32,076 nucleotides of DNA from a virus (IMGVR_UViG_3300025133_000400:1-32076), one strand, 5' to 3'; shown: positions 6,029 through 16,334, counted from the first letter of the stretch. Program-made: numbers and translations. The notes: generated by a model from the sequence alone, not told the origin.

Positions 6029-6335
6029 GTCTAAGGCTAAGGGCAATAGGTTTGAATATCTATGTAGGGATATTATACAAGAAGGTGGTGTGTATTGCAA
6101 AAGGGCTTATGCATCTAATGGATTAGCACTAGGACTAACTGAAGATGTTGACCTATTAGCTACACATCAAGGGGAACAGTACCCACTACAGTGCAAAGCA
6201 AGGAAAAGGATAGCTGAATGGATTAAGCCTAATGGCAATGTTTTTGCCCAGCTTATTAAAGAAGACAGGGGTGAAGCATTAGCTGTGGTTAGGCTAGAAG
6301 ATTTAATTAAATTAATCAAGGCTAATGGGCAATAG
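6018..6335 (+). CDS. Holliday-junction-resolvase-like PD-(D/E)XK nuclease
   Basis: A 105-residue protein with KGNRFEYLCRDII (E13), then RAYASNG, TEDVDLLA (D43, D45) and PLQCKARK (Q58-C-K60). This matches the compact resolvase / VRR-type arrangement: helix glutamate, a turn with S-N-G, an acidic strand, then Q/E-x-K. It probably cuts branched DNA from recombination or before packaging. Its ATG overlaps the end of the initiator gene, after AAGAAGGGGAAAG. It is the last gene before the terminator at 6353, which fits the end of an early operon. Confidence 0.75.
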   Translation: MASKSKAKGNRFEYLCRDIIQEGGVYCKRAYASNGLALGLTEDVDLLATHQGEQYPLQCKARKRIAEWIKPNGNVFAQLIKEDRGEALAVVRLEDLIKLIKANGQ

Positions 6336-6352
6336 TTATGTTAAATTAATTA

Positions 6353-6392
6353 CTGGATGGGGGCTGACACCCCCCACCCAGACTGTTTTTTT
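6353..6392 (+). terminator. Rho-independent terminator of the early operon
   Basis: CTGGATGGGGG (6353-6363) pairs with CCCCCACCCAG (6371-6381), eleven positions with one A-C mismatch, loop CTGACAC. Four bases later come seven T (6386-6392). This is the strongest rightward intrinsic terminator in the window and lies 17 bases after the resolvase stop. Confidence 0.85.
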
Positions 6393-6396
6393 AATG

Positions 6397-6491
6397 GTAA
6401 AACTACACACCACAACATATAGTGGTGTTTTACTTTACATAACTTCAGTTATCAACATTGTGATGGTATGCCATACCATATATAGTGGTGT
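6397..6491. promoter_or_regulatory. Palindrome array upstream of the small terminase gene
   Basis: Four elements are packed in 95 bases: ACACCAC/GTGGTGT (6407-6413, 6422-6428) with outer arms GTAAA (6397-6401) and TTTAC (6429-6433); ATAACT-TC-AGTTAT (6439-6452); ATGGTAT-GCC-ATACCAT (6463-6479); and a direct repeat ATATAGTGGTGT at 6417-6428 and 6480-6491. TTGTGA (6458-6463) and TATAGT (6482-6487), 18 bp apart, could be a promoter. The site follows a terminator and precedes the packaging gene, as expected for a late promoter/operator or a packaging (cos/pac) site. The 20 bp at 6409-6428 recur at 14852-14871. Confidence 0.6.
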
Positions 6492-6495
6492 GGTG

Positions 6496-6621
6496 ATGGG
6501 AAAAACAGCGAAGAAGAAGGGGGCATGGGGGGTTTTTGGGGTTGCTATACTCGCAGTCACCCAAACCCACAAAGCCAAAATTAATATGTTAACCAGAGAA
6601 TTAACAGAATATGGGGGTTAA
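6496..6621 (+). CDS. Possible small basic/hydrophobic protein, 41 aa
   Basis: ATG 6496 opens MGKTAKKKGAWGVFGVAILA..., ending directly before the small terminase start. It has a basic N-terminus and a short hydrophobic stretch. No clear binding site precedes it, and its codons include GCG, CTC and GCA/GTC combinations rare in the window, so it may be untranslated leader. A longer frame from 6325 runs through the terminator and is less believable. Tentative. Confidence 0.35.
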   Translation: MGKTAKKKGAWGVFGVAILAVTQTHKAKINMLTRELTEYGG

Positions 6622-7275
6622 ATGACTGTAGGAAGTCATGGATTAACAGAAAAACAAAGGATTGCAGTTGATGTGATTGCCACTAATATAAATGCCACTA
6701 TTCAGTATGTTGCTAAGATAGCTGGATGTAGTACAAAGTCAGTTTCTTCATGGAAGAAGAACCCAAACTTTATTGAGGCTATTTATGATAGGTATGTGGA
6801 ACTCACTGGGGTCAAATTGATTGAAGTATTAGAAGCATTATTTGAAAAAGCCCTTGATGGGGATGTGTCAGCTACTAGGTTATTACTTGAACACCACCAG
6901 AAACTTCAAAGGAATGTAAACATTACTATTGATTCCCCATTTGAAAAGTTTATGAAGATAAACAATATTCCAGCAGGGGAAATAGCTGAAGGGGAAGTAG
7001 TTGAACCTATACCCATCCCAGTTGAAGTTCCAAAAGAAGCCCTAGTTGTAGAAACTATACCCCAAGAAAGGGTTAGGCATGCTAAATTAGATGAAAGGGC
7101 TAGGTATAATGCAGACCAGCTTAAAAGAAGAAGGTTAAGAATTAGGGCTGAAGCTGTAGGGTTGAAGTTATTTCCAAAAGGGAAGCACCCACAGCATAAA
7201 AGGGATGTGTGGCTGAAAAAATTAAAGAAACTAGAAGCAGAACAAGGGATAATTTACCCAGATGATGAAATTTAG
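6622..7275 (+). CDS. Terminase small subunit-like DNA-binding protein
   Basis: A 217-residue protein whose N-terminus (LTEKQRIAVDVI ... ATIQYVAKIAGCSTKSVSSWKKNPNF) is a helix-turn-helix of the type found in phage small terminase subunits and related homeodomain-like phage proteins. A helical segment (VLEALFEKALDGDVSATRLLLEHH) could oligomerise, followed by a Pro/Val/Glu linker and a very basic C-terminus (DQLKRRRLRIRAEAVG). It should recognise the packaging site and present DNA to the large subunit. It is far from, and opposite in strand to, the large subunit (13445-14755). The binding site is TATGGGGGTTAA. Confidence 0.7.
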   Translation: MTVGSHGLTEKQRIAVDVIATNINATIQYVAKIAGCSTKSVSSWKKNPNFIEAIYDRYVELTGVKLIEVLEALFEKALDGDVSATRLLLEHHQKLQRNVNITIDSPFEKFMKINNIPAGEIAEGEVVEPIPIPVEVPKEALVVETIPQERVRHAKLDERARYNADQLKRRRLRIRAEAVGLKLFPKGKHPQHKRDVWLKKLKKLEAEQGIIYPDDEI

Positions 7276-7435
7276 CATTCTGGAATGGTATGTAATTGAC
7301 TACAGGATGCAGTTTATTGACATTAAAACTTTAGAAGAAGATATTATTATGGGCAATGCAGTGATGCAGTTCTTACACATCTATTTAAAGACAGCTAAGG
7401 ATGATGCCCATTATTTGCACCTACCTTTAGCCTAA
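7262..7435 (+). CDS. Hypothetical protein, 57 aa
   Basis: Starts inside the end of the small-terminase gene (ATGATGAAATTTAG) and encodes MMKFSILEWYVIDYRMQF..., a helical protein ending HYLHLPLA. Stop/start overlap, typical codon use and lack of other features in this stretch support it. AAGGG lies about 13 bases upstream of ATG 7262, a little far. Its TAA stop (7433-7435) runs into the A-tract of the leftward terminator. Function unknown. Confidence 0.65.
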   Translation: MMKFSILEWYVIDYRMQFIDIKTLEEDIIMGNAVMQFLHIYLKTAKDDAHYLHLPLA

Positions 7436-7467
7436 AAAAAAGCCCCAGAACATGTATTCTAGGGCTT
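7434..7467 (-). terminator. Strong leftward terminator (weakly bidirectional)
   Basis: AAGCCCCAGAA (7440-7450) pairs with TTCTAGGGCTT (7457-7467) with a single mismatch and loop CATGTA. On the leftward transcript the stem is followed by eight U (A-tract 7434-7441). It ends the leftward block beginning at 9580. On the rightward strand the stem is followed only by CTTAGGG, so it is a weaker stop for the small-terminase unit. Confidence 0.85.
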
Positions 7468-7486
7468 CTTAGGGATAACACACAAC

Positions 7487-7720
7487 TTACCTATCAATGC
7501 AACATATTTGAAGCCATCCTTTTCCATCTTTAACACCATAATCAATATTTGTCATATAGTGTGGAAAATAATCAAGTAACCATTGATTGATTTCACAAAT
7601 TGTTTCTGGGTCATCATGTGTATATTTAACAACTGAACATTCTTTGTCATATACCATTTTTAAGCCAGTAATTTCAATCATTGATTTTAGATATTTATAT
7701 GTAAGTTCCTTCTTTGCCAT
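7487..7720 (-). CDS. Hypothetical protein, 77 aa
   Basis: Last gene of the leftward block, with AGAAAGGGCAGTAAA before its ATG. It is a small acidic/basic mixed protein with an aromatic-rich second half (EINQWLLDYFPHYMTNIDYG) and two adjacent Cys near the end. No domain is recognised. It lies just upstream of the leftward terminator. Confidence 0.75.
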   Translation of the reverse strand: MAKKELTYKYLKSMIEITGLKMVYDKECSVVKYTHDDPETICEINQWLLDYFPHYMTNIDYGVKDGKGWLQICCIDR

Positions 7721-7754
7721 TTTACTGCCCTTTCTTTTTTATTCTAATGTCTAA

Positions 7755-8606
7755 TTAGATAAGTGGAATAGCCATAGATACATCTATTTTAATAAGCTTT
7801 ATCCTTGCAAGCTGGGTTTCTTTATACTGGAAGTCATTAAAGTGTCTTAAATCACTGTTTTGGTGGCTTTCAGCCATATTATGTGATTTTATAGTTCCAG
7901 TAATTTCAGCATTCATTCCTTTTTCTATACTATCAACTATTTTGCCAGATGTAAAAGTGATAAAAATATTGCCCTTTTTATCTTGCATTTTAATTATCCA
8001 AGACTCCCCATACATCCCATCAAAAGAAAACATATTTAAAATAGTAACTTTAGTGGTAATCTTTTCACCTTCAACCCCCACCCATTTTGATGTAGTATAT
8101 TTATCTATCAATTTTTTATCTTCAGCTGTTCTTGCCTTTTCTTCATCTTCAATAGTTTTTGTATAAGCAATGATTTCTGGAAGGGTTTTTATATAGGCTA
8201 AACATTCAACTTGGGCTGTTGATTTATTAGCACTTAGACCCCATTGTTCAGCCAAATATTTAATGCCAAATTCTTTTTCTTCTTTTATAATATCTAAAAT
8301 TTTCCACCCAAAATATTTTTGCCCATAATTAAGTGTTTCACCATCGAAGATTCTAGTCCTTTCATCTACCCCATAAACACCATATTCTGTTAAGTTAGTT
8401 TCTGGGGTAGTTTTGAAGCTGGCATTAAGTCCATCAGCATAAAGCTTGCCTTTGGCTATTGCTTCATCATAATCAATAGCAAGGTTTTTAACATGATAAT
8501 CAGATTGGCTAATTAGTTTGCCTTCATATTCTCCACCACCTTCAAAATATCTAAGGGTATAAATTTTACCTTCCCCACCAGTTGATAAATAATAGTAATC
8601 TTTCAT
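7755..8606 (-). CDS. Unknown protein with OB-fold-like C-terminal domain, 283 aa
   Basis: The N-terminal 60 residues form a small domain with KLISQSDYHVKNLAIDYDEA and glycine turns. A long helical stretch (about 110-165) follows, with many Lys/Glu. The last 110 residues (SKWVGVEGEKITTKVTIL ... GESWIIKMQDKKGNIFITFTSG ... GMNAEITGTIKSH) show the strand-turn pattern of an OB-fold-like module that recurs in phage and plasmid proteins, often ending in a G-T-(I/V)-K-x-H strand. Nucleic-acid binding is possible but unproven. It is the third of four leftward genes, with GGAAG before its ATG. Confidence 0.75.
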   Translation of the reverse strand: MKDYYYLSTGGEGKIYTLRYFEGGGEYEGKLISQSDYHVKNLAIDYDEAIAKGKLYADGLNASFKTTPETNLTEYGVYGVDERTRIFDGETLNYGQKYFGWKILDIIKEEKEFGIKYLAEQWGLSANKSTAQVECLAYIKTLPEIIAYTKTIEDEEKARTAEDKKLIDKYTTSKWVGVEGEKITTKVTILNMFSFDGMYGESWIIKMQDKKGNIFITFTSGKIVDSIEKGMNAEITGTIKSHNMAESHQNSDLRHFNDFQYKETQLARIKLIKIDVSMAIPLI

Positions 8607-8607
8607 T

Positions 8608-8955
8608 TTATTTAACTTCCTTTTTTATTTTCAAACCATCTTTTCCAGTTTTGAAGCCTTCCATAGCTTGGTTAATTGTAGCCATAGTCTGTTTTTTAGT
8701 AACTGCTGGCTCATAGTCTATAAGTGCAATCCACACCATTTTGCCTTGTAATTCAGTTTGGTATTCAAGGGCAATAGAATCAAAGTTGCATCTTTCCCCA
8801 GTATATGCACAGGTTGCTTTATCATAAGCACTGAATCCATACATATTATCAAATGTCCATCTCACTAGCATTTCCCTGCTACTTCCAACCATTCGAACAG
8901 TAAAAGCTTCTGATTTAAAAATCCAATTATATTCTGTTTCAGCTGTAAATTTCAT
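8608..8955 (-). CDS. Hypothetical protein, 115 aa
   Basis: I start at ATG 8955, MKFTAETEYNWIF, because AAGGAAGC lies eight bases upstream inside the end of the preceding gene. A longer frame to 9015 would overlap that gene by about 60 bases. The protein is strand-rich in its first half, has two Cys (CAYTGERC) and a helical basic tail. Family unknown. It lies one base after the 207-residue gene and two bases before the 283-residue gene, so the block is one operon. Confidence 0.72.
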   Translation of the reverse strand: MKFTAETEYNWIFKSEAFTVRMVGSSREMLVRWTFDNMYGFSAYDKATCAYTGERCNFDSIALEYQTELQGKMVWIALIDYEPAVTKKQTMATINQAMEGFKTGKDGLKIKKEVK

Positions 8956-8956
8956 G

Positions 8957-9580
8957 TTATTTAGCTTCCTTATATAGTTCTGGATGTTCATCTTTATGTT
9001 TACCATAAATTGCACATATTGTATTTAATGCAGTTACTTTACCAAATAGATAATAAAAGGTTCTAATAAATTGAGTTCCATGTTGATTCATTCCCCAATG
9101 AGAATTTGCAGTTACTTCTAAACCACCAAATTCTTCGGTTAAACTATATCCTTCTAGGAATCTAACTTTTTTTGCTTCCATTATTTCTTCAATAGTCTTT
9201 TCTATTTTATTAGCCTTTATTTGTTCTGGAGTTTCAATTTTAACTAGTGGTACAACTTCAGTTTCTTTTATTGCATTCCTCAATTCAACCAAAATTTCAA
9301 TTTCCTTAGTTTCTTTGGGGAATCTGGCACTAGATAACTTGCTGTGCTTTTTATTCCAAATATGTGGGTAGGCTGGAAGCCCCCAGTATAGTTTAGAATG
9401 TTCTTCAGTTTTTAATCTTTCCTCTATAGGAACATTTAATAACTCTTCTCTAATCATTCCTGTAAGTGCTTCATAAGCATAAAGTATTTGACTTAGTGCA
9501 TTTTTCTTAGATGCCTTAGAGGTGAACCCTTTATTTAATAGGTCAATTGCTTGGTTCTTATAGTATTCAAATGTTCTCAT
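8957..9580 (-). CDS. Hypothetical protein, 207 aa
   Basis: First gene of the leftward block. ATG 9580 (MRTFEYYKNQ) is favoured because AAAAAGGAACAAC precedes it directly. An upstream in-frame ATG at 9613 has no near binding site. The product is helical in its first 150 residues, with an acidic/basic repeat-like stretch (QIKANKIEKTIEEIMEAKK), then a Gly/aromatic-rich end (SHWGMNQHGTQFIRTFYYLFG). The N-terminal helix-rich part resembles small phage proteins of unknown role. No catalytic motif is evident. Confidence 0.72.
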   Translation of the reverse strand: MRTFEYYKNQAIDLLNKGFTSKASKKNALSQILYAYEALTGMIREELLNVPIEERLKTEEHSKLYWGLPAYPHIWNKKHSKLSSARFPKETKEIEILVELRNAIKETEVVPLVKIETPEQIKANKIEKTIEEIMEAKKVRFLEGYSLTEEFGGLEVTANSHWGMNQHGTQFIRTFYYLFGKVTALNTICAIYGKHKDEHPELYKEAK

Positions 9581-9802
9581 GTTGTTCCTTTTTCTGTTGT
9601 TTGCTGTTGTCATAACTATTATAAAAATAAGGAATATTATATATATAATACAACTAATAAAATGGGGAAAAGTGCATTTTTTTAAACAAAGTGCTTTTTT
9701 ACTGTTTTCAGAGGGGGGAAATCTTTTAAATCAAAATATTATTGGAAGATATTGTTTTTTTTTGTATATTGTAACCCTTAAAATGGAAGGAATCTATTTA
9801 TT
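9581..9802. promoter_or_regulatory. Divergent promoter region with AAAGTGC repeats
   Basis: This 222-bp region lies between the leftward block and the small rightward gene at 9803. TATAAT-like sequences occur near 9635-9650 in both directions. Two direct copies of AAAGTGC followed by T-runs lie at 9669-9675 and 9688-9694, 19 bp apart, near a spacing for sites on one DNA face, and could be operators. T-runs at 9675-9683 and 9694-9700 are not preceded by strong hairpins. A short open frame here (9579-9815) is not believed to be a gene. Confidence 0.5.
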
Positions 9803-10000
9803 ATGGCAGAATTAAAATCAATACAGGATGCTGTAGATGCTTATGAAAAAGCATTTGGGAAAAAGCCCCATGTGTTTTCATTTGCTGATGAAAAAAGTTT
9901 TATTGATGCAGTTAAATTTTGCTTAGAAAAGAAAAGCCCAATAGCTGGGAAAATGGGGCAAAAGATTAAGCTTGGTGAAAATCCAGACATTTTTATATAA
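9803..10000 (+). CDS. Hypothetical protein, 65 aa
   Basis: An isolated rightward gene between two leftward units, with GGAAGGAA about ten bases before ATG. The product is a small basic/acidic helical protein (SIQDAVDAYEKAFGK ... FADEKSFIDAVKFCLEKK) with no known motif. Its stop overlaps tail-to-tail by eight bases with the end of the leftward gene at 9993. A gene alone with its own promoter region in this position is sometimes regulatory, but no DNA-binding motif is seen. Confidence 0.65.
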   Translation: MAELKSIQDAVDAYEKAFGKKPHVFSFADEKSFIDAVKFCLEKKSPIAGKMGQKIKLGENPDIFI

Positions 10001-11396
10001 TATTCCCATCAATTAAGTCTTCATAAAACTTAGTTAGTTCTGGCAATCTTTCCTTTGTCCAAGCCCAAGCCTCTGGGTTTCTGGTATAAATTTCAGTTAA
10101 ATTAGCAAACACTTCATGTAGTTGCCCTTTTACACCCCTTTTAGTATAATAAGATGTTTCATGACCATAGCCAAGTTTGTTTTTTGTTAAAGCCCCAAAA
10201 AGGTCATTTATATTTATGTAATCACTAAATAATTCCCTTCTAATGCTAGTCTTAGTTCCAAGTGCTGGGTTGTCTTGAAGGGTAGCTAATGCTTTTCCAA
10301 TTTTTTCCCCAAATTCAGATGCCAAATTCTGCCCCCATCTGCCTTTTATATAAAGCTTCCTTGATGAATAAAGGGATTGGTCAGCCTTAAAAGCCCTACC
10401 AAACCTATGTAAAATAGTTGCTTCACTGTCAGTAAACCTTAAAAACTTAACTAAATCTGAATCTATGGTTTTACTTGAAAGAAATTTATTTAGTTCCTTT
10501 TTAAACCAAGAGGTTTTGCGATTGATGCTAGTTAGTTGCTCTAGCATGTAATGCCCATATTCATGCCTAGCAATAGAATATCCCCTTGCATTTACCTTTG
10601 TGGATGATAAATAGCTTTTTCCCATGTGAATGGAAGATGAAACAGCCTTATGGTAAGCATCCTCTCCATCAATCCTAAACATATTTTTAATAGCTGGAAC
10701 ATTTTTTGTAATAAAGCCAGTAAATTTTTGGTTTGCTGTTTTAAAAGCATCTTGAAAGTGTTTATTCAACCCTTTGTCATCACTTGCAAATTTCTTATTA
10801 AACTCACCCCTTGCACCACCACTTTTAACTGGTTTTTTCCTAGTGAAAGTTTTCTTTTCTGGTTTAGCTTTTTCAACCACCACCTTTTTATCCATTTTGC
10901 CAACTGGGTCAAGGACACAATAACACCAACCCCTGCAAAATGACCATCCACTTGCTGGCAACCCTTCTTTAACCCATTCATCCCAGCTTTTAACTTCACC
11001 AGCCCTTGCATCACAATCTGGGCAAACCTTGTGACCACCAACAGTGACCCAAGCAAAACTGTCTTGTTCACCATATTTTTCAAACTGTCCTAATCTAGAA
11101 GATTGATTGATTCCTTCAACAATGGATTCTTTAGAATTGTTCCTTAGTTCCCCAAAGATTCTGCCCCCAGCCTTCATGTCATTTTTCAAAACCCTTTCAA
11201 TCTGTTTTGTAGTCATTCCATTAGCTGACATTGTTGAAACAGCTTGTTCAATTCTACTTCCAAAAACTTGCACATCAAAAAGCATTTTGTCAATAGTGTT
11301 TCCAAGCATTGTTTCCATTCCTTCTGGAAATGTGTCCAGAAGCTTTACAATACTATCAAAATCATCACCAAATATTTCTGTTAAACCTTGTGCCAT
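9993..11396 (-). CDS. Mu F-like minor head protein fused to zinc metallopeptidase domain
   Basis: A 467-residue protein in two parts. Residues 1-165 resemble the minor capsid/head morphogenesis (Mu gpF-like) family: helical start, then VCPDCDARAGEV (Cys 125, 128) and a Cys cluster near 154-160 (FCRGWCYC), with WDEW and GLPASGW between. After a basic linker, residues 225-467 contain ARHEYGHYM (H278, E279, H282), an HExxH zinc site, and later LHEVFANLTEIY (about 427-437), where E428 or E435 could be the third ligand. Such peptidase-like tails occur on phage head proteins. A capsid-associated protease or host-directed enzyme are both possible. Last gene of the leftward head operon. Confidence 0.78.
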   Translation of the reverse strand: MAQGLTEIFGDDFDSIVKLLDTFPEGMETMLGNTIDKMLFDVQVFGSRIEQAVSTMSANGMTTKQIERVLKNDMKAGGRIFGELRNNSKESIVEGINQSSRLGQFEKYGEQDSFAWVTVGGHKVCPDCDARAGEVKSWDEWVKEGLPASGWSFCRGWCYCVLDPVGKMDKKVVVEKAKPEKKTFTRKKPVKSGGARGEFNKKFASDDKGLNKHFQDAFKTANQKFTGFITKNVPAIKNMFRIDGEDAYHKAVSSSIHMGKSYLSSTKVNARGYSIARHEYGHYMLEQLTSINRKTSWFKKELNKFLSSKTIDSDLVKFLRFTDSEATILHRFGRAFKADQSLYSSRKLYIKGRWGQNLASEFGEKIGKALATLQDNPALGTKTSIRRELFSDYININDLFGALTKNKLGYGHETSYYTKRGVKGQLHEVFANLTEIYTRNPEAWAWTKERLPELTKFYEDLIDGNII

Positions 11397-11950
11397 CCAG
11401 CTTTCAACCCACTTTTAAGTCTTAATTTCAATTCAAGCATAGCTTTCTGGTAATGTTTACCTTTAGGCTGGGCTGATTTAGGTATTCCAAACCATTTTCT
11501 GGCTGGAACTTTTTTATTAGGAATCATTGATTTAGAACTGGTGATGTAACCTTGATTGTGAAAAGCCCCATAATAAACCCCAGCTTTTTTTCTTTTTACT
11601 TTTCTACCAAAAACCACATCTGATGATTTGTTTTTTCCAACCATCTTTAGTTTGAATTTCAAATTGCTAGTTGTAGCTGGTTCAAGTTTGGTTTGTCTTA
11701 ATCCCTTGCTTCTTCCCCCAGTTTTAAGCAGTGGTTTTTCACCATAACCACCAGCTTGCCTAATTGGAATTGTGGAATCTGAACTTAATGATTTAAAAGA
11801 ATTTCCATCAATATCAACACCCTTTTCAATTCCTTCTTGGATGGCTAAATTCATCCTTCTAGCTAAGACATTCAAGCTATCAGCCATAGTTTTAGCCAAC
11901 CCTTCAGCCATCTTGCTAAAGGAGTAGTTTTTTGTTCCCTTTTTAATCAT
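11381..11950 (-). CDS. Phage virion morphogenesis protein (tail completion/gpG-like)
   Basis: A 189-residue very basic protein. The sequence GGRSKGLRQT, then YYGAFHNQGY and PNKKVPARKWFGIP, follows the pattern of the virion morphogenesis / HK97 gp10-like group, where a central F-H-N-x-G strand and a late VPARxF motif are common. These proteins act at the head-tail junction. It overlaps the Mu F-like gene's start by 16 bases and directly follows the 77-residue gene. Confidence 0.72.
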   Translation of the reverse strand: MIKKGTKNYSFSKMAEGLAKTMADSLNVLARRMNLAIQEGIEKGVDIDGNSFKSLSSDSTIPIRQAGGYGEKPLLKTGGRSKGLRQTKLEPATTSNLKFKLKMVGKNKSSDVVFGRKVKRKKAGVYYGAFHNQGYITSSKSMIPNKKVPARKWFGIPKSAQPKGKHYQKAMLELKLRLKSGLKAGWHKV

Positions 11951-12184
11951 TTAGCCTTCTAAATTCTTGCTTGCAAAATCTTTTCCAAGTTTGTAGGATT
12001 CCATATATTTTTCCACATGATTTGCAAAATTCATTTCAACCAAATCCAAAGCATATTGCTCTGGGTTTTCAATTATAGCTTTGATGTTTTGCTGGGGAAT
12101 TTCTACATCAATTTCATTTAGCTTTTGCAGTTTTGTCACGAATTCTTTTAAAAACTGATTGTGTGGATTCTGGTTGGTTGGCAT
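11951..12184 (-). CDS. Small protein between portal and morphogenesis genes, 77 aa
   Basis: The start lies inside the 3' end of the portal gene (71-bp overlap). ATG 12184 (MPTNQNPHNQF) has AGAAAGG six bases upstream. ATG 12187 is the near alternative, and a longer frame reaches 12211. The product is helical and acidic (LKEFVTKLQKLNEI ... YALDLVEMNFANHVEKYMESYKLGK). It may be a head-assembly accessory protein by position; no family recognised. Confidence 0.7.
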   Translation of the reverse strand: MPTNQNPHNQFLKEFVTKLQKLNEIDVEIPQQNIKAIIENPEQYALDLVEMNFANHVEKYMESYKLGKDFASKNLEG

Positions 12185-13448
12185 CATTGACCTTTCTATT
12201 ATTTTGAACAATTGAATCAGCTTCTTTTTCTTTTAAATCTTGATTGTAACCCACTAAAAGCTTTGATTGTGTGGTTAGATTGTTAGCCAGCAAATGATTA
12301 TCCCAAGCAATTTGGTCTTGGACATTCTTAGGGTAATCTGGTTCATTAAAATCTAGCCCTAATTTGTCTGGCAATTTAATCCCATTAAGGTCAGCATGTG
12401 CTTTTTCTAAAGCATAAACATTTCTTTCATAAACATCCCAAATCCCTAAATCATTTTGCCAATTAGTGTGCATGTCTAAGTCTTTAATTTTTAATGCTAT
12501 CCCAGAGCTTGCCCTTTCTTTTCCTTCATTACTAAACTGGACTTGAAGGCTGTTGTTGGTGGCACATAAATTAATCATTGACTTAACTAGCTCAATTGCA
12601 TCCTTCATGTTAGAATTTGGGGACTGGAAACTAAAACTAGCACCTTCTGGAAGAATCATTGCTTCATCTGTTCCAGCTCTTGTAATCTTGGCATCTGAAT
12701 AAAGCCCAGTTATAATTGGCTGTCCAAACATTTGAAACCTCATACCAAGATTTGCTTCAGTAAGTAGAATGTTAACTGATTCATTACAGTTAATGATGTC
12801 ATCAGCCCCAGCAACCTTAAAATCAACAAGCTGGTGTTCTTTATGCATAAATGTGAAAGGTAAAAACCCATAACTGTGTTTAACTTCTTTTAAAACCCCA
12901 CCATCTTCATCATATTCAATATAAGTGTGGGCATCCCAATAGCAATAACTAAGTTTTTCAATATTGTCAATATCACTGGTTGACCTCATTAATGGGTAGC
13001 TTATAGATATTGGGGTAAAAGGGTCATCACCAAAATTTGCATCAAAATAATAAATTGGGAGATAGTCAAAGAAAGTATTTCCAAAACTGTCATGCTTCAA
13101 TAAAACCCTAACAGCAACTGTTCCTAACAGCTTGGTCATCCTTTCAATGTGTTTAAATTTATAGTCCTTTTTTCCAATCATGGTAGCATATTTACTGCCA
13201 GCATTTCTAGAAGCACCTAATGAATAGACCCTACTAATTTTGGCAATGAATTTTTTAGTTAGGTTAAAGTTAACTGGGGGGACTTCTTGAAATGAAGCCC
13301 CTTTAAATCTTGGCTTAATATATTGTAGAGTATTATCCCCAGCATAATAATCAATAAATTTAGTTATCAATTTGCGTTCTTCTTGTGCATTAACCAGCCT
13401 TGCTGATTTAACACTTTCTTGAATTATATCTTGTGCTATTATATTCAT
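12114..13448 (-). CDS. Portal protein
   Basis: A 444-residue protein directly after the terminase large subunit (ATG overlaps its stop by 4 bases). Its pattern fits tailed-phage portal proteins: an N-terminal helical part with FIDYYAGDN and RFKGASFQEVPPVNFNLTKKFIAKISRVY, a strand-rich wing (about 90-230), the central helix with NILLTEANLGMRFQMFGQPIITG, then SSGIALKIKDLDM and a long C-terminal helical region. Twelve copies would form the DNA gateway at the capsid vertex and contact terminase and connector. Length is typical of the smaller siphovirus portals. Confidence 0.85.
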   Translation of the reverse strand: MNIIAQDIIQESVKSARLVNAQEERKLITKFIDYYAGDNTLQYIKPRFKGASFQEVPPVNFNLTKKFIAKISRVYSLGASRNAGSKYATMIGKKDYKFKHIERMTKLLGTVAVRVLLKHDSFGNTFFDYLPIYYFDANFGDDPFTPISISYPLMRSTSDIDNIEKLSYCYWDAHTYIEYDEDGGVLKEVKHSYGFLPFTFMHKEHQLVDFKVAGADDIINCNESVNILLTEANLGMRFQMFGQPIITGLYSDAKITRAGTDEAMILPEGASFSFQSPNSNMKDAIELVKSMINLCATNNSLQVQFSNEGKERASSGIALKIKDLDMHTNWQNDLGIWDVYERNVYALEKAHADLNGIKLPDKLGLDFNEPDYPKNVQDQIAWDNHLLANNLTTQSKLLVGYNQDLKEKEADSIVQNNRKVNDANQPESTQSVFKRIRDKTAKAK

Positions 13449-14755
13449 CTTCCTATTGCCCTATATTTGTATTGTTTAATGGGAAACTTGTTGACAAAAA
13501 AGTATCTCATGCAGTCCATGCTATGGTCGTGATAACCATCTTTAAGTGGTTCATTTTTGATGTGTGTGCCATCCTTATGTTCTGGGTATCTATAAGCTTC
13601 TAAGTCTTCAGCAATTTCAATGCATTTTTTATTAACATGTAGAAACCTTTCATTCTTAGCATTTTCAATAAAACTTCTTACATGATTAATTCCAGCTTCA
13701 ACATTCCTGCTGGTTTTATCCCTAATTGTGAAAATCCTTTTCCCAGTATATCTGTAAAATAGTTCAGCATCACCAATGCCAGTGCCAGCATTAACTTGGT
13801 AGCCAGCTGGGTCACCATAAAATCTACTAACATTGTAAGGTTTCCCCATTACTATTTCAGCTAATTTATCCACTTTTAAGTTGGTTTGATGCACCACTTC
13901 ATCAATTATGTTAACATGGTTTGCACCATCTTGCTGATAGGTTTGAAACCACAAAACAGCTGGCATTCTATAACCAAAATCAATAGAACAAAAAGTTGGA
14001 ATTGCTGGATTGTATGGAAAAAGACCAATATCAAGATTTCTGTCAAAAGGGTAAACCTTACCAGCCAAACTGGTAAATTCAGCACCATATTCTTGGGCAA
14101 AATTTTCTTTAGTAGATGTCCTTTTTGCATCTTGCAAATCTTCATCTTCCAACCCTTTGGGGAATACAATATTATTTTCCCATGTAGGGGAATTAAAAGA
14201 AAAATATGATGGTTCTTTTTTCCCTAATAAATAAAGTTCCCAAAAATAATTATAGGATTCTGGTGTGGAAATGAAAATTGCCTTTCCTTTTTTATCTGAT
14301 AATGAGGGTCTTAATATTTGTCCCCAAACCCTTCTTAAATTCATTTTACTGGCTTCATCAAATACAACCAAATCTAAGCCTTCACCAACAAGACCATCTG
14401 GATGTTCTGCTGATTTTCCACAGAAGGTTGAACCCCATTCAAATTGAATAAACTGTTCTTTTAAAGACTTCCTAATTGTTGGAAGCTTTTTGTCAATAAT
14501 CAAATCCTTCCAAACTATGTTAAAAATCTTTTCACTAATCGAATAAGTGGGGGCAACTACCCACACAACTTTATTAGGCTGTGTCACTAGTGCTTCAATT
14601 TCTTTGGCAGATGCAACAGACTTGCCCCACCTTCGCCCACAACAAGCAATGATGAATCTTTTATTGTCTGGGGCATTGTGAAGCTTTAATTGCCCACTGT
14701 GTGGTTTATAGTCAACAAACTCAAACCACTTCTTTTTATAAGCATTTTTAATCAA
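13445..14755 (-). CDS. terL: Terminase large subunit
   Basis: 436 residues with all expected motor and nuclease parts. The Walker A-type motif is CGRRWGKS (39-46), Walker B is LDLVVFDE (127-134) and the coupling motif is STP (163-165). The C-terminal RNase H-like nuclease shows SIDFGY (D259), YGDPAG (D315) and GYHDHSMDCMRY (D410/D414). It translocates DNA into the prohead through the portal and cuts it. The first gene of the leftward head operon, it is transcribed away from the scaffold/capsid genes, an unusual split from the tail side. The small subunit-like gene is 6 kb away on the other strand. Confidence 0.95.
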   Translation of the reverse strand: MIKNAYKKKWFEFVDYKPHSGQLKLHNAPDNKRFIIACCGRRWGKSVASAKEIEALVTQPNKVVWVVAPTYSISEKIFNIVWKDLIIDKKLPTIRKSLKEQFIQFEWGSTFCGKSAEHPDGLVGEGLDLVVFDEASKMNLRRVWGQILRPSLSDKKGKAIFISTPESYNYFWELYLLGKKEPSYFSFNSPTWENNIVFPKGLEDEDLQDAKRTSTKENFAQEYGAEFTSLAGKVYPFDRNLDIGLFPYNPAIPTFCSIDFGYRMPAVLWFQTYQQDGANHVNIIDEVVHQTNLKVDKLAEIVMGKPYNVSRFYGDPAGYQVNAGTGIGDAELFYRYTGKRIFTIRDKTSRNVEAGINHVRSFIENAKNERFLHVNKKCIEIAEDLEAYRYPEHKDGTHIKNEPLKDGYHDHSMDCMRYFFVNKFPIKQYKYRAIGR

Positions 14756-14896
14756 ATTACTAAAATATTTTGCATAGTTATACTTATAATTTATATATTA
14801 TAACACCAATTACACAAGATATTGTGTAAATTTGGTAAATTTTTAACCATAACCACAACATCTTGTGGTGTGAGTTTAATAAAAAAAAGGATGCAG
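14756..14896. promoter_or_regulatory. Divergent late control region with paired palindromes
   Basis: Between terminase (leftward) and scaffold (rightward). It contains TTACACAA-GATA-TTGTGTAA (14810-14829) and ACCACAA-CATC-TTGTGGT (14852-14869). Both share the core CACAA-NATN-TTGTG and their centres are 41 bp apart, close to four helical turns. TATAAT (14785-14790) reads rightward and ATTATA (14797-14802) reads TATAAT leftward, so promoters for both directions fit. The second palindrome belongs to a 20-bp element nearly repeated at 6409-6428. AAAAAAAAGG at the right end is the scaffold binding site. Confidence 0.65.
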
Positions 14897-15430
14897 ATGG
14901 CAGAAGAACAGGTTCAGCAGAACCAAGAACAAAATGAAGGTAATCAAGAAACCAGTGAGGGTGAACAAGATTACAAAGCTTTGTATTTATCAGAAATTGA
15001 TAATGCTAAAAAACAAAGGAAGGCTAAACAGGAAGCAGAATCCAAGCTTAATAAGTTTGAGCAAGATGCAGAAGCATTAAGGGTGGGGAGTCTTAAAGAA
15101 GAAGGCAAAAAGGATGAATATATTAAGGAACTGGAAGGCAAAATTTCAACTATATCTCCTAAGCTTGAAACTTTAGAAGGCTTTTATAATAACACCAAAA
15201 CTGAATTGCTTTCAAAGGTAGCAGACGAAACAGAAAGGGAAACACTTTCTGGTTTATCATTAGAACAGTTGCAAGTAATCATCCCTAAGATGACAGCACA
15301 AAAGAAAGCTGAACAAATTGGGGATTCATATGGGGCTGTTAAACAAAATAAAATTAAAAAAGACATTTCTGAAATGACGATTGACGAACAAAAGGAAAAT
15401 TGGGACGCAATTGTTGATTCTTTCAGATAA
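14897..15430 (+). CDS. Capsid scaffold protein
   Basis: A 177-residue highly charged helical protein immediately before the capsid gene. The N-terminus is Gln/Glu-rich, with a coiled coil (about residues 25-95, KKQRKAKQEAESKLNKFEQD), then a second helical stretch ending near EQLQVIIPKM and a basic-acidic tail ending EQKENWDAIVDSFR. Composition, length and position are as in scaffolding proteins of siphoviruses. I start at ATG 14897 because AAAAAGG is six bases before it. A longer frame from 14822 lies inside the control palindromes. Confidence 0.82.
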   Translation: MAEEQVQQNQEQNEGNQETSEGEQDYKALYLSEIDNAKKQRKAKQEAESKLNKFEQDAEALRVGSLKEEGKKDEYIKELEGKISTISPKLETLEGFYNNTKTELLSKVADETERETLSGLSLEQLQVIIPKMTAQKKAEQIGDSYGAVKQNKIKKDISEMTIDEQKENWDAIVDSFR

Positions 15431-15446: not shown

Positions 15447-16334
15447 ATGGCTTATGTAAATACTTCAGTTGGAACAGCAGACACAGATGCTGACATGCTT
15501 GTTCCAGAACTCTGGGCAAAATCAGTTTTTGGCTATATCCAAAAGAAAATGGTTTTATCAAACTTGGTTGACACTTCTTTTTCTTCTTTAGTAAAAGAAA
15601 AAGGTGATGTGATTCACATTCCTAAAGTGTCAGCTGAAAGTGCAACCACTACAACACCAGTAGCATTGTCTGGTGCAACCGAAAACATAACTTACACATC
15701 ACCAAATGATGGCGAAGTGCAACTGTCTATAAATAAATTGTCTTATGTGGCAAAAATTATTTCTGACATTGCTAAAATTCAAGCTTCACCAGAATTATTA
15801 AATGCATATACTAAAAATATGGGTTATGCTATTGCTGGGGCAATTGAAGACTTTGTTCATACAACAATTTCTGGTGCATCTGGTGCATCAAATCTTGATT
15901 TAGGAACAGCCAACACCTTTGCTGATTCAGACCTTTCAGCAATTGTTTCCAAAATAGGTGATTTAGGTCTTGATGCCAAAGGCATGGTGTTTGCTCTACA
16001 TCCATATCATTATGGCAAATTATATGCACTAGATGAGTTCACTTCTAGGGATTACAGAAGTGATGCACCAGTTCAATCTGGAATAGCTGGAACATTGCTT
16101 GGCATGCCAGTTGTTGTTTCAAATGAATTTGGAACTGGAACACCATCAGCTGATGCTGTTGTTGGTGCGTTATGGCATCCCGAAAATGTTAAGCTTGCAT
16201 ACCAACAAACACCTAAAGTTGTTTCACAATATTCTGTGGACTTTTTGGGCAATAAAGTTGCTGTATGGTCAGCTTATGGGGGTGCAGTTCTTAATGGCAA
16301 CCAAGTCATTTTAATTAACGAACCAGCAAGTTAA
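15447..16334 (+). CDS. Major capsid protein (HK97-type fold)
   Basis: A 295-residue protein in the standard place after scaffold. It has an N-terminal arm (MAYVNTSVGTADTDADMLVPELW), an extended strand region with VIHIPKVSAES, a long helix around SPELLNAYTKNMGYAIAGAIEDF, the P-domain-like FALHPYHYGKLYALDEF, then GIAGTLLGMPVVVSN and a closing strand set. These fit HK97-fold capsid proteins. AAGGGG precedes the ATG. Small accessory genes and an unusual 14-bp stem-loop follow it. Confidence 0.88.
   Translation: MAYVNTSVGTADTDADMLVPELWAKSVFGYIQKKMVLSNLVDTSFSSLVKEKGDVIHIPKVSAESATTTTPVALSGATENITYTSPNDGEVQLSINKLSYVAKIISDIAKIQASPELLNAYTKNMGYAIAGAIEDFVHTTISGASGASNLDLGTANTFADSDLSAIVSKIGDLGLDAKGMVFALHPYHYGKLYALDEFTSRDYRSDAPVQSGIAGTLLGMPVVVSNEFGTGTPSADAVVGALWHPENVKLAYQQTPKVVSQYSVDFLGNKVAVWSAYGGAVLNGNQVILINEPAS

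Follow-up and report, generated by a model that had tools for sequence, protein, structure and literature searches.

The palindromic elements found in two control regions of an uncultured phage are probably NrdR boxes, i.e., sites of the host's own NrdR. Boxes A and B lie between the divergent genes for the terminase large subunit (terL, minus strand) and a scaffold-like protein (plus strand), where they straddle the predicted promoters of both. Boxes C and D lie upstream of the terminase small subunit gene (terS). This reading draws on the fit of the sequences to the published box, the invariant positions, the pairing and spacing of the boxes, their conservation at the divergent promoters, and searches of the phage group that found no gene for NrdR or ribonucleotide reductase (RNR). 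NrdR is described as a repressor of RNR genes, which it represses when loaded with ATP plus dATP (PMC9110341). What is new is the location of the boxes, at phage assembly genes, and their apparent recurrence in other phage lineages; the NrdR box itself was already known.

Genes and layout of the window

The stretch analysed, hereafter the window, comprises all 32,076 bases of a virus record in IMG/VR (IMGVR_UViG_3300025133_000400:1-32076). Its packaging and head genes and the elements discussed here are listed in Table 1.

Table 1. Genes, boxes and promoter element of the window (NrdR-like boxes scored out of a maximum of 23)
Feature	Position	Strand	Remarks
terS (terminase small subunit)	6622..7275	+	PHROG phrog_24579, E 5.7e-9; Pfam HTH_Tnp_1_2
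terL (terminase large subunit)	13445..14755	-	PHROG phrog_2, E 6.5e-42
Scaffold-like gene	14897..15430	+	named from its position directly 5' of the major capsid protein gene
Major capsid protein	15447..16334	+	PHROG phrog_267, E 2e-39
Candidate terL -10 (TGT-TATAAT)	14797..14802	-	9 bp from box A; predicted from sequence
Box A, NrdR-like, ACACAAGATATTGTGT	14812..14827	.	22.0 of 23, best single box of the window; 15/16 consensus positions
A-B spacer, 25 bp	14828..14852	.	within the 24-27 bp tolerated by NrdR (PMC12051234)
Box B, NrdR-like, CCACAACATCTTGTGG	14853..14868	.	19.0, fourth-best single box; core of the second 20-mer, 14852-14871
Box C, NrdR-like, CCACAACATATAGTGG	6410..6425	.	20.0, second-best single box; 13/16; core of the 20-mer 6409-6428
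Box D, NrdR-like, ATACCATATATAGTGG	6473..6488	.	19.5, third-best single box; 13/16; includes most of the half-site 6480-6491

We found no close relatives of this phage among cultured phages: terL was about 31% identical to a match in Arthrobacter phage Wollypog, and the capsid about 25% identical to matches in cyanophages. The scaffold-like gene matched no PHROG or Pfam family in the profile search, and a divergent ORF is kept in its place upstream of terL in relatives. A scan for tRNA genes found none in the window. The block running from terL to the head morphogenesis genes (window 7487-14755) is inverted relative to terS and the scaffold gene, here and in most relatives. It is collinear in L004, L020-L022, L039 and L046, and the boxes are confined to the inverted arrangements. 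A 98-aa ORF (window 6325-6621) with a sub-threshold Pfam hit overlaps both terS-side boxes and is possibly not a gene; translation from an internal ATG at about 6497 could nevertheless yield 41 aa and extend up to terS.

Palindromes of the window and their fit to the NrdR box

The preliminary description had reported two palindromic 20-mers, at 6409-6428 and 14852-14871, and both were found at these positions, identical at 18 of the 20. Their palindromy is uneven. The second site is a clean palindrome (14852-14869, with 7-bp arms and a 4-bp spacer), and the first is a weaker one than described, palindromic only in the form ACACCAC-N8-GTGGTGT (6407-6428). A related third palindrome does exist (TTACACAAGATATTGTGTAA, 14810-14829, with 8-bp arms); its centre is 41 bp from that of the second site. 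The half-site ATATAGTGGTGT also recurs, at 6480-6491. The elements do lie, as was proposed, in two packaging or head control regions on opposite strands. When the 32 kb were searched for the 20-mer with up to three mismatches, the sole extra match was the first site read in reverse. No similar matches occurred inside coding regions, and dinucleotide shuffles gave zero matches at the same threshold.

We scored every 16-mer of the window against the NrdR consensus acaCwAtATaTwGtgt (Rodionov and Gelfand, quoted in PMC4009431), with 2 points for capitals, 1.5 for w and 1 for lower-case positions; this is the published bacterial box, which may not match that of the phage's host. The four highest-scoring boxes of the whole 32 kb were precisely the four elements noted above, whereas only about 0.2 boxes scoring at least 19.5 are expected in the window. 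Box A sits within the palindrome 14810-14829, over the -35/spacer part of the promoter predicted for terL. Box B departs from the consensus at four positions, keeps every capital, and lies 28 bp ahead of the start codon of the scaffold-like gene.

NrdR binds two boxes separated by 14-17 or 24-27 bp, and binds other spacings poorly (PMC12051234). The A/B pair (14812/14853) scored 41.0 at a spacer of 25 bp, the best pair with a permitted spacer in the window and above all three E. coli nrd promoters under the same scoring (nrdAB 37.0, nrdHIEF 38.0, nrdDG 40.0; at each nrd locus the top pair falls in the promoter). Of 400 windows simulated with a second-order Markov model, one reached 38 and none reached 39 or more. 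The best pairs in the unrelated phages HTVC011P, 11b, HMO-2011 and A-4L scored between 31.5 and 36.

The motif was picked after the sequence had been seen, a post hoc choice that lends some weight to another reading: that the divergent late promoter is controlled by some other regulator, encoded by the phage or an unrelated one of the host, whose site is also a CAA-N4-TTG palindrome, and that the likeness to NrdR boxes reflects coincidence or a shared recognition logic. We consider this unlikely. Given the order of events, we ran a random-motif control on the terL/scaffold region, in which an equal fit arose at a rate of 1.5e-4 with random palindromic half-sites and of 0.0025 with column-permuted NrdR motifs.

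Across 15 boxes compared, the only invariant positions were A3 together with C4, A6, A8, T9, T11 and G13. The latter six are the capitals of the consensus, and variation was limited to w and lower-case positions. C4 and G13, present in 15 of the 15 boxes, match the GC pairs with which NrdR makes contact (PMC9110341). The same comparison bears on a role of the palindromes as RNA hairpins or terminators instead of protein sites, which we regard as very improbable. The site at 6407-6428 does have a terminator-like hairpin score on both strands. Yet A and T swap independently at positions 5 and 12, which breaks pairing while keeping CwA...TwG, and box A precedes the putative transcription start of terL and would thus be outside the terL transcript.

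Promoter context

The predicted terL promoter element, TGTTATAAT, is on the minus strand at 14805-14797, and is separated from box A by 9 bp; a strict two-hexamer promoter scan returned nothing at terL/scaffold. At terS there is a sigma70-like match (6458-6486), of a kind found in about the number expected by chance, and its predicted -10, TATAGT, is overlapped by box D. A perfect palindrome with 8-bp arms, ATGGTATGCCATACCAT (window 6463-6479), also overlaps box D and is possibly another operator.

Conservation in relatives

Relatives, which are ocean phages, were collected by TerL-based searches of IMG/VR (15 loci, then 80 of 456). They show two arrangements: terL divergent from a scaffold-like gene, as in the window, or terS and terL collinear. 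Eight relatives whose terL is 52-55% identical (L008-L014 and L017) carry AAATAC[A/T]ATATCTTGTATTT, or a closely similar sequence, equally far ahead of terL. Compared with the window palindrome on the terL strand, the core ACAATATCTTGT is exact in seven of the eight, and one base off in L012. The arms differ from those of the window on both sides simultaneously, as expected for a dimer site. The collinear relatives lack the palindrome before terL.

Among the 57 distinct divergent terL regions, 26 contain a pair scoring at least 34 (vs. 0.5% of simulated regions) and 18 a pair scoring at least 37 (vs. 0 of 3000), and none of the nine collinear regions reaches 34. The region's pair is the best of the locus, across its analysed DNA, in 31 of the 57 divergent regions. 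With spacers from 4 to 44 bp taken into account, the pairs scoring at least 37 had spacers of 14 (two), 15 (nine), 16 (three), 25 (one) and 26 bp (three), plus singles at 8, 10 and 36. These clusters at 14-16 and 25-26 bp are the two windows permitted by NrdR (PMC12051234), which argues against an unrelated regulator. The boxes lie in predicted promoters, and their register with the terL start is held across relatives; the second, scaffold-side box overlaps the scaffold Shine-Dalgarno in relatives, which supplies part of the match.

In a sister clade (L006, L040-L049, L062, L077, L078, L084 and L090), the place of the NrdR box is taken by the palindrome TATGCAAATTTTTGCATA or a variant of it, about -85 from terL, and a further copy sits at the terL start, 52 bp from the first. 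It matches nine of the 16 NrdR consensus positions and has in common with the window only the frame CAA-N4-TTG. Either the regulators may differ between clades, or this frame may serve another protein; the persistence of the frame in the same place under a different sequence is a point for the unrelated regulator considered above.

Conservation is therefore strong between terL and scaffold. It is absent upstream of terS, where relatives show no consistent NrdR boxes. A pattern search for small terminase relatives found none, and tblastn on the relatives' contigs found terS in most relatives. The upstream regions show instead a G-rich stretch and short repeats (TACCATTCCACAAAAAATGTAAAA, AACTTTGA), a candidate packaging site. 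In the window's C/D pair the boxes are separated by 47 bp (63 bp between centres), more than the spacings over which NrdR was tested. This pair is less secure as an NrdR site and could belong to a packaging site.

The region upstream of terS is a common location of packaging sites. The first site (6409-6428) might accordingly be a packaging (cos/pac) or replication element unrelated to NrdR, a reading that we find unlikely; the features of the relatives' terS regions speak for it. It is countered by the ranking of C and D as the second- and third-best NrdR boxes of the genome, and by the overlap of D with the promoter-like match.

These results also bear on the regulator proposed in the preliminary description, a single protein coordinating late transcription across strands that was either new or the small terminase itself. 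The sites do look like those of one regulator, which at the divergent terL/scaffold promoter could plausibly coordinate the two strands; the case for including terS in that circuit comes from one genome, and the terS pair is not conserved. We rejected the small terminase, for which we found no evidence, because the boxes are missing upstream of terS in relatives that have the terS gene. Nor does the regulator have to be new, since a known host repressor explains sites that fit the NrdR box by sequence, invariant positions and box-to-box spacing. The observation is confirmed, and the idea of one regulator appears right in spirit, though it calls for no new regulator and does not require the small terminase in that role.

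Absence of RNR and NrdR genes

We searched the window and other records for protein families linked to NrdR. There were no matches to the ATP-cone domain of NrdR and many RNRs (PF03477; 30 records including the window), to the class I/II RNR large subunit (PF02867; 23 records including the window), to the RNR small subunit (PF00268; 17 records including the window) or to the NrdR zinc ribbon (PF22811; 17 records). As these searches turned up neither NrdR nor RNR genes in the phage group, the regulator should be that of the host. The window's sites do not lie upstream of an RNR gene and hence are not classed as RNR-operon sites. PHROG and Pfam searches recognised no regulator gene in the window, in agreement with the earlier remark that no known regulator family is evident among its genes, and this too counts against a distinct regulator. 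One contig of this phage group (L095, NHEP01000147.1) is part of the MAG TMED88 (GTDB). We discarded TMED88 as the host, as the contig is a probable misbin: another TMED88 contig encodes Ala-, Arg- and Gly-rich proteins, which, judged from the proteins, are typical of a GC-rich genome.

NrdR box pairs in other viruses

The textbook pair ACAATATATWGT...ACWATATATWGT was found in 105 IMG/VR stretches (loci L129-L233) at spacers of 14-17 bp, vs. two at 18-21 bp, the commonest spacer being 16 bp; viral contigs may include host flanks, and 105 is therefore an upper bound for phage-owned pairs. These independently found pairs follow the same spacing rule, a further argument against an unrelated regulator. 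Almost all of them (101 of 105) lie outside long ORFs. Among 50 IMG/VR records with a consensus pair, PF02867 was present in two and NRDD in 15, counted anywhere in the record. Of 84 ORFs with a start no more than 220 bp from a pair, the full reach of the survey, one is NRDD. Few pairs adjoin RNR genes, and some stand ahead of genes for portal, head protease or scaffold in other phages. Among the neighbouring genes are those for Clp-type head proteases, SPP1- and P22-type portals, a scaffold, methylases, repressors and an antirepressor.

One pair (L203:5318-5361) lies between divergent portal and head scaffolding genes. None of the eight window proteins searched matches this locus, and we rejected it as a relative of the window, as the product of its 427-aa gene is a portal protein in which BLAST detects no similarity to the window's terL. 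Here the same logic is apparently used independently. Pairs of CACAANATNTTGTG occur in four more loci, which include two related viral contigs (L127:2055-2200 and L128:1331-1385) with repeated CACAACATCTTGTG sites over a TTGACA...TATATT promoter; their boxes precede an Acb2/Tad1-hairpin gene, and a terminase gene lies further on in L127. In a 150-kb phage (L126:1527-1583), an NrdR-like pair immediately precedes a small ORF and a long cluster of tRNA-like genes.

Comparison with known systems

The phage sites resemble those at the RNR operons of bacteria (E. coli nrdHIEF, nrdAB and nrdDG; S. coelicolor nrdRJ) in the 16-bp palindrome with its invariant positions and in the pairing of boxes at 14-17 or 24-27 bp; the bacterial pairs overlap promoters, as the phage pairs would if the predicted promoters are correct. 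They differ in that they precede terminase, scaffold and capsid genes, with no RNR or NrdR gene in the window or the relatives searched. The NrdR regulon is not strictly limited to RNR genes, as shown by topA of Pseudomonas aeruginosa (PMC4409342), which differs from the present case in being a host gene with a single box and a reported activating effect. In T4, late transcription depends on replication by way of the sliding clamp gp45 (PMC2988020, PMC7892883), a system alike in purpose in that it ties late genes to DNA replication; it uses a phage clamp and phage factors, whereas the link proposed here is a host dATP sensor.

Discussion

NrdR loaded with ATP does not bind DNA; once dATP occupies its second site, it forms a tetramer, by which two-box promoters are bent and repressed (PMC9110341). 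If the boxes are NrdR sites, early in infection, when dATP would be high, NrdR would hold the head and packaging genes off: with box A over the predicted terL -35 and box B before the scaffold-like start, both transcription units would be repressed. Phage DNA replication would then consume dATP and lift the repression. Alternatively, release might come from replicating phage DNA which, with four boxes per genome, would titrate scarce NrdR. In either case late genes would come on together with host nucleotide synthesis. More broadly, several phage lineages may have recruited the host's dATP sensor as a timer from replication to assembly, with box pairs in portal, terminase, scaffold and protease promoters and the drawdown of dATP releasing late genes. 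We put this forward tentatively, at slightly less than even chances.

With the same sites, one would also expect a decoy effect on the nrd genes of the host. That this is their main role, i.e., that they titrate NrdR from host nrd promoters and raise dNTP supply, with secondary effects on late promoters, is in our view a poor prospect. The four boxes per genome would suit such a role, as would the infection by phage SpSL1, in which NrdR-regulated operons are the most strongly upregulated host genes (PMC6755750), a result that also counts for the main reading. But placement in predicted promoters and register with the terL start would be superfluous for a pure sponge, and SpSL1 itself has no strong box pair (best 33.0 with the same scoring), showing that derepression is possible without phage boxes.

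A full-text search of an open-access library returned no paper whose title or summary describes NrdR boxes in phages. If the proposal is true, phages have turned a conserved metabolite sensor of the host into a switch for their own development, which would give a general answer to how late transcription is timed in lytic phages without a late regulator of their own. The NrdR regulon would reach into viruses, dATP levels would predict the timing of late genes, and box pairs would provide a signature that can be searched for. The phage and its relatives may time virus assembly with the nucleotide sensor of their host.
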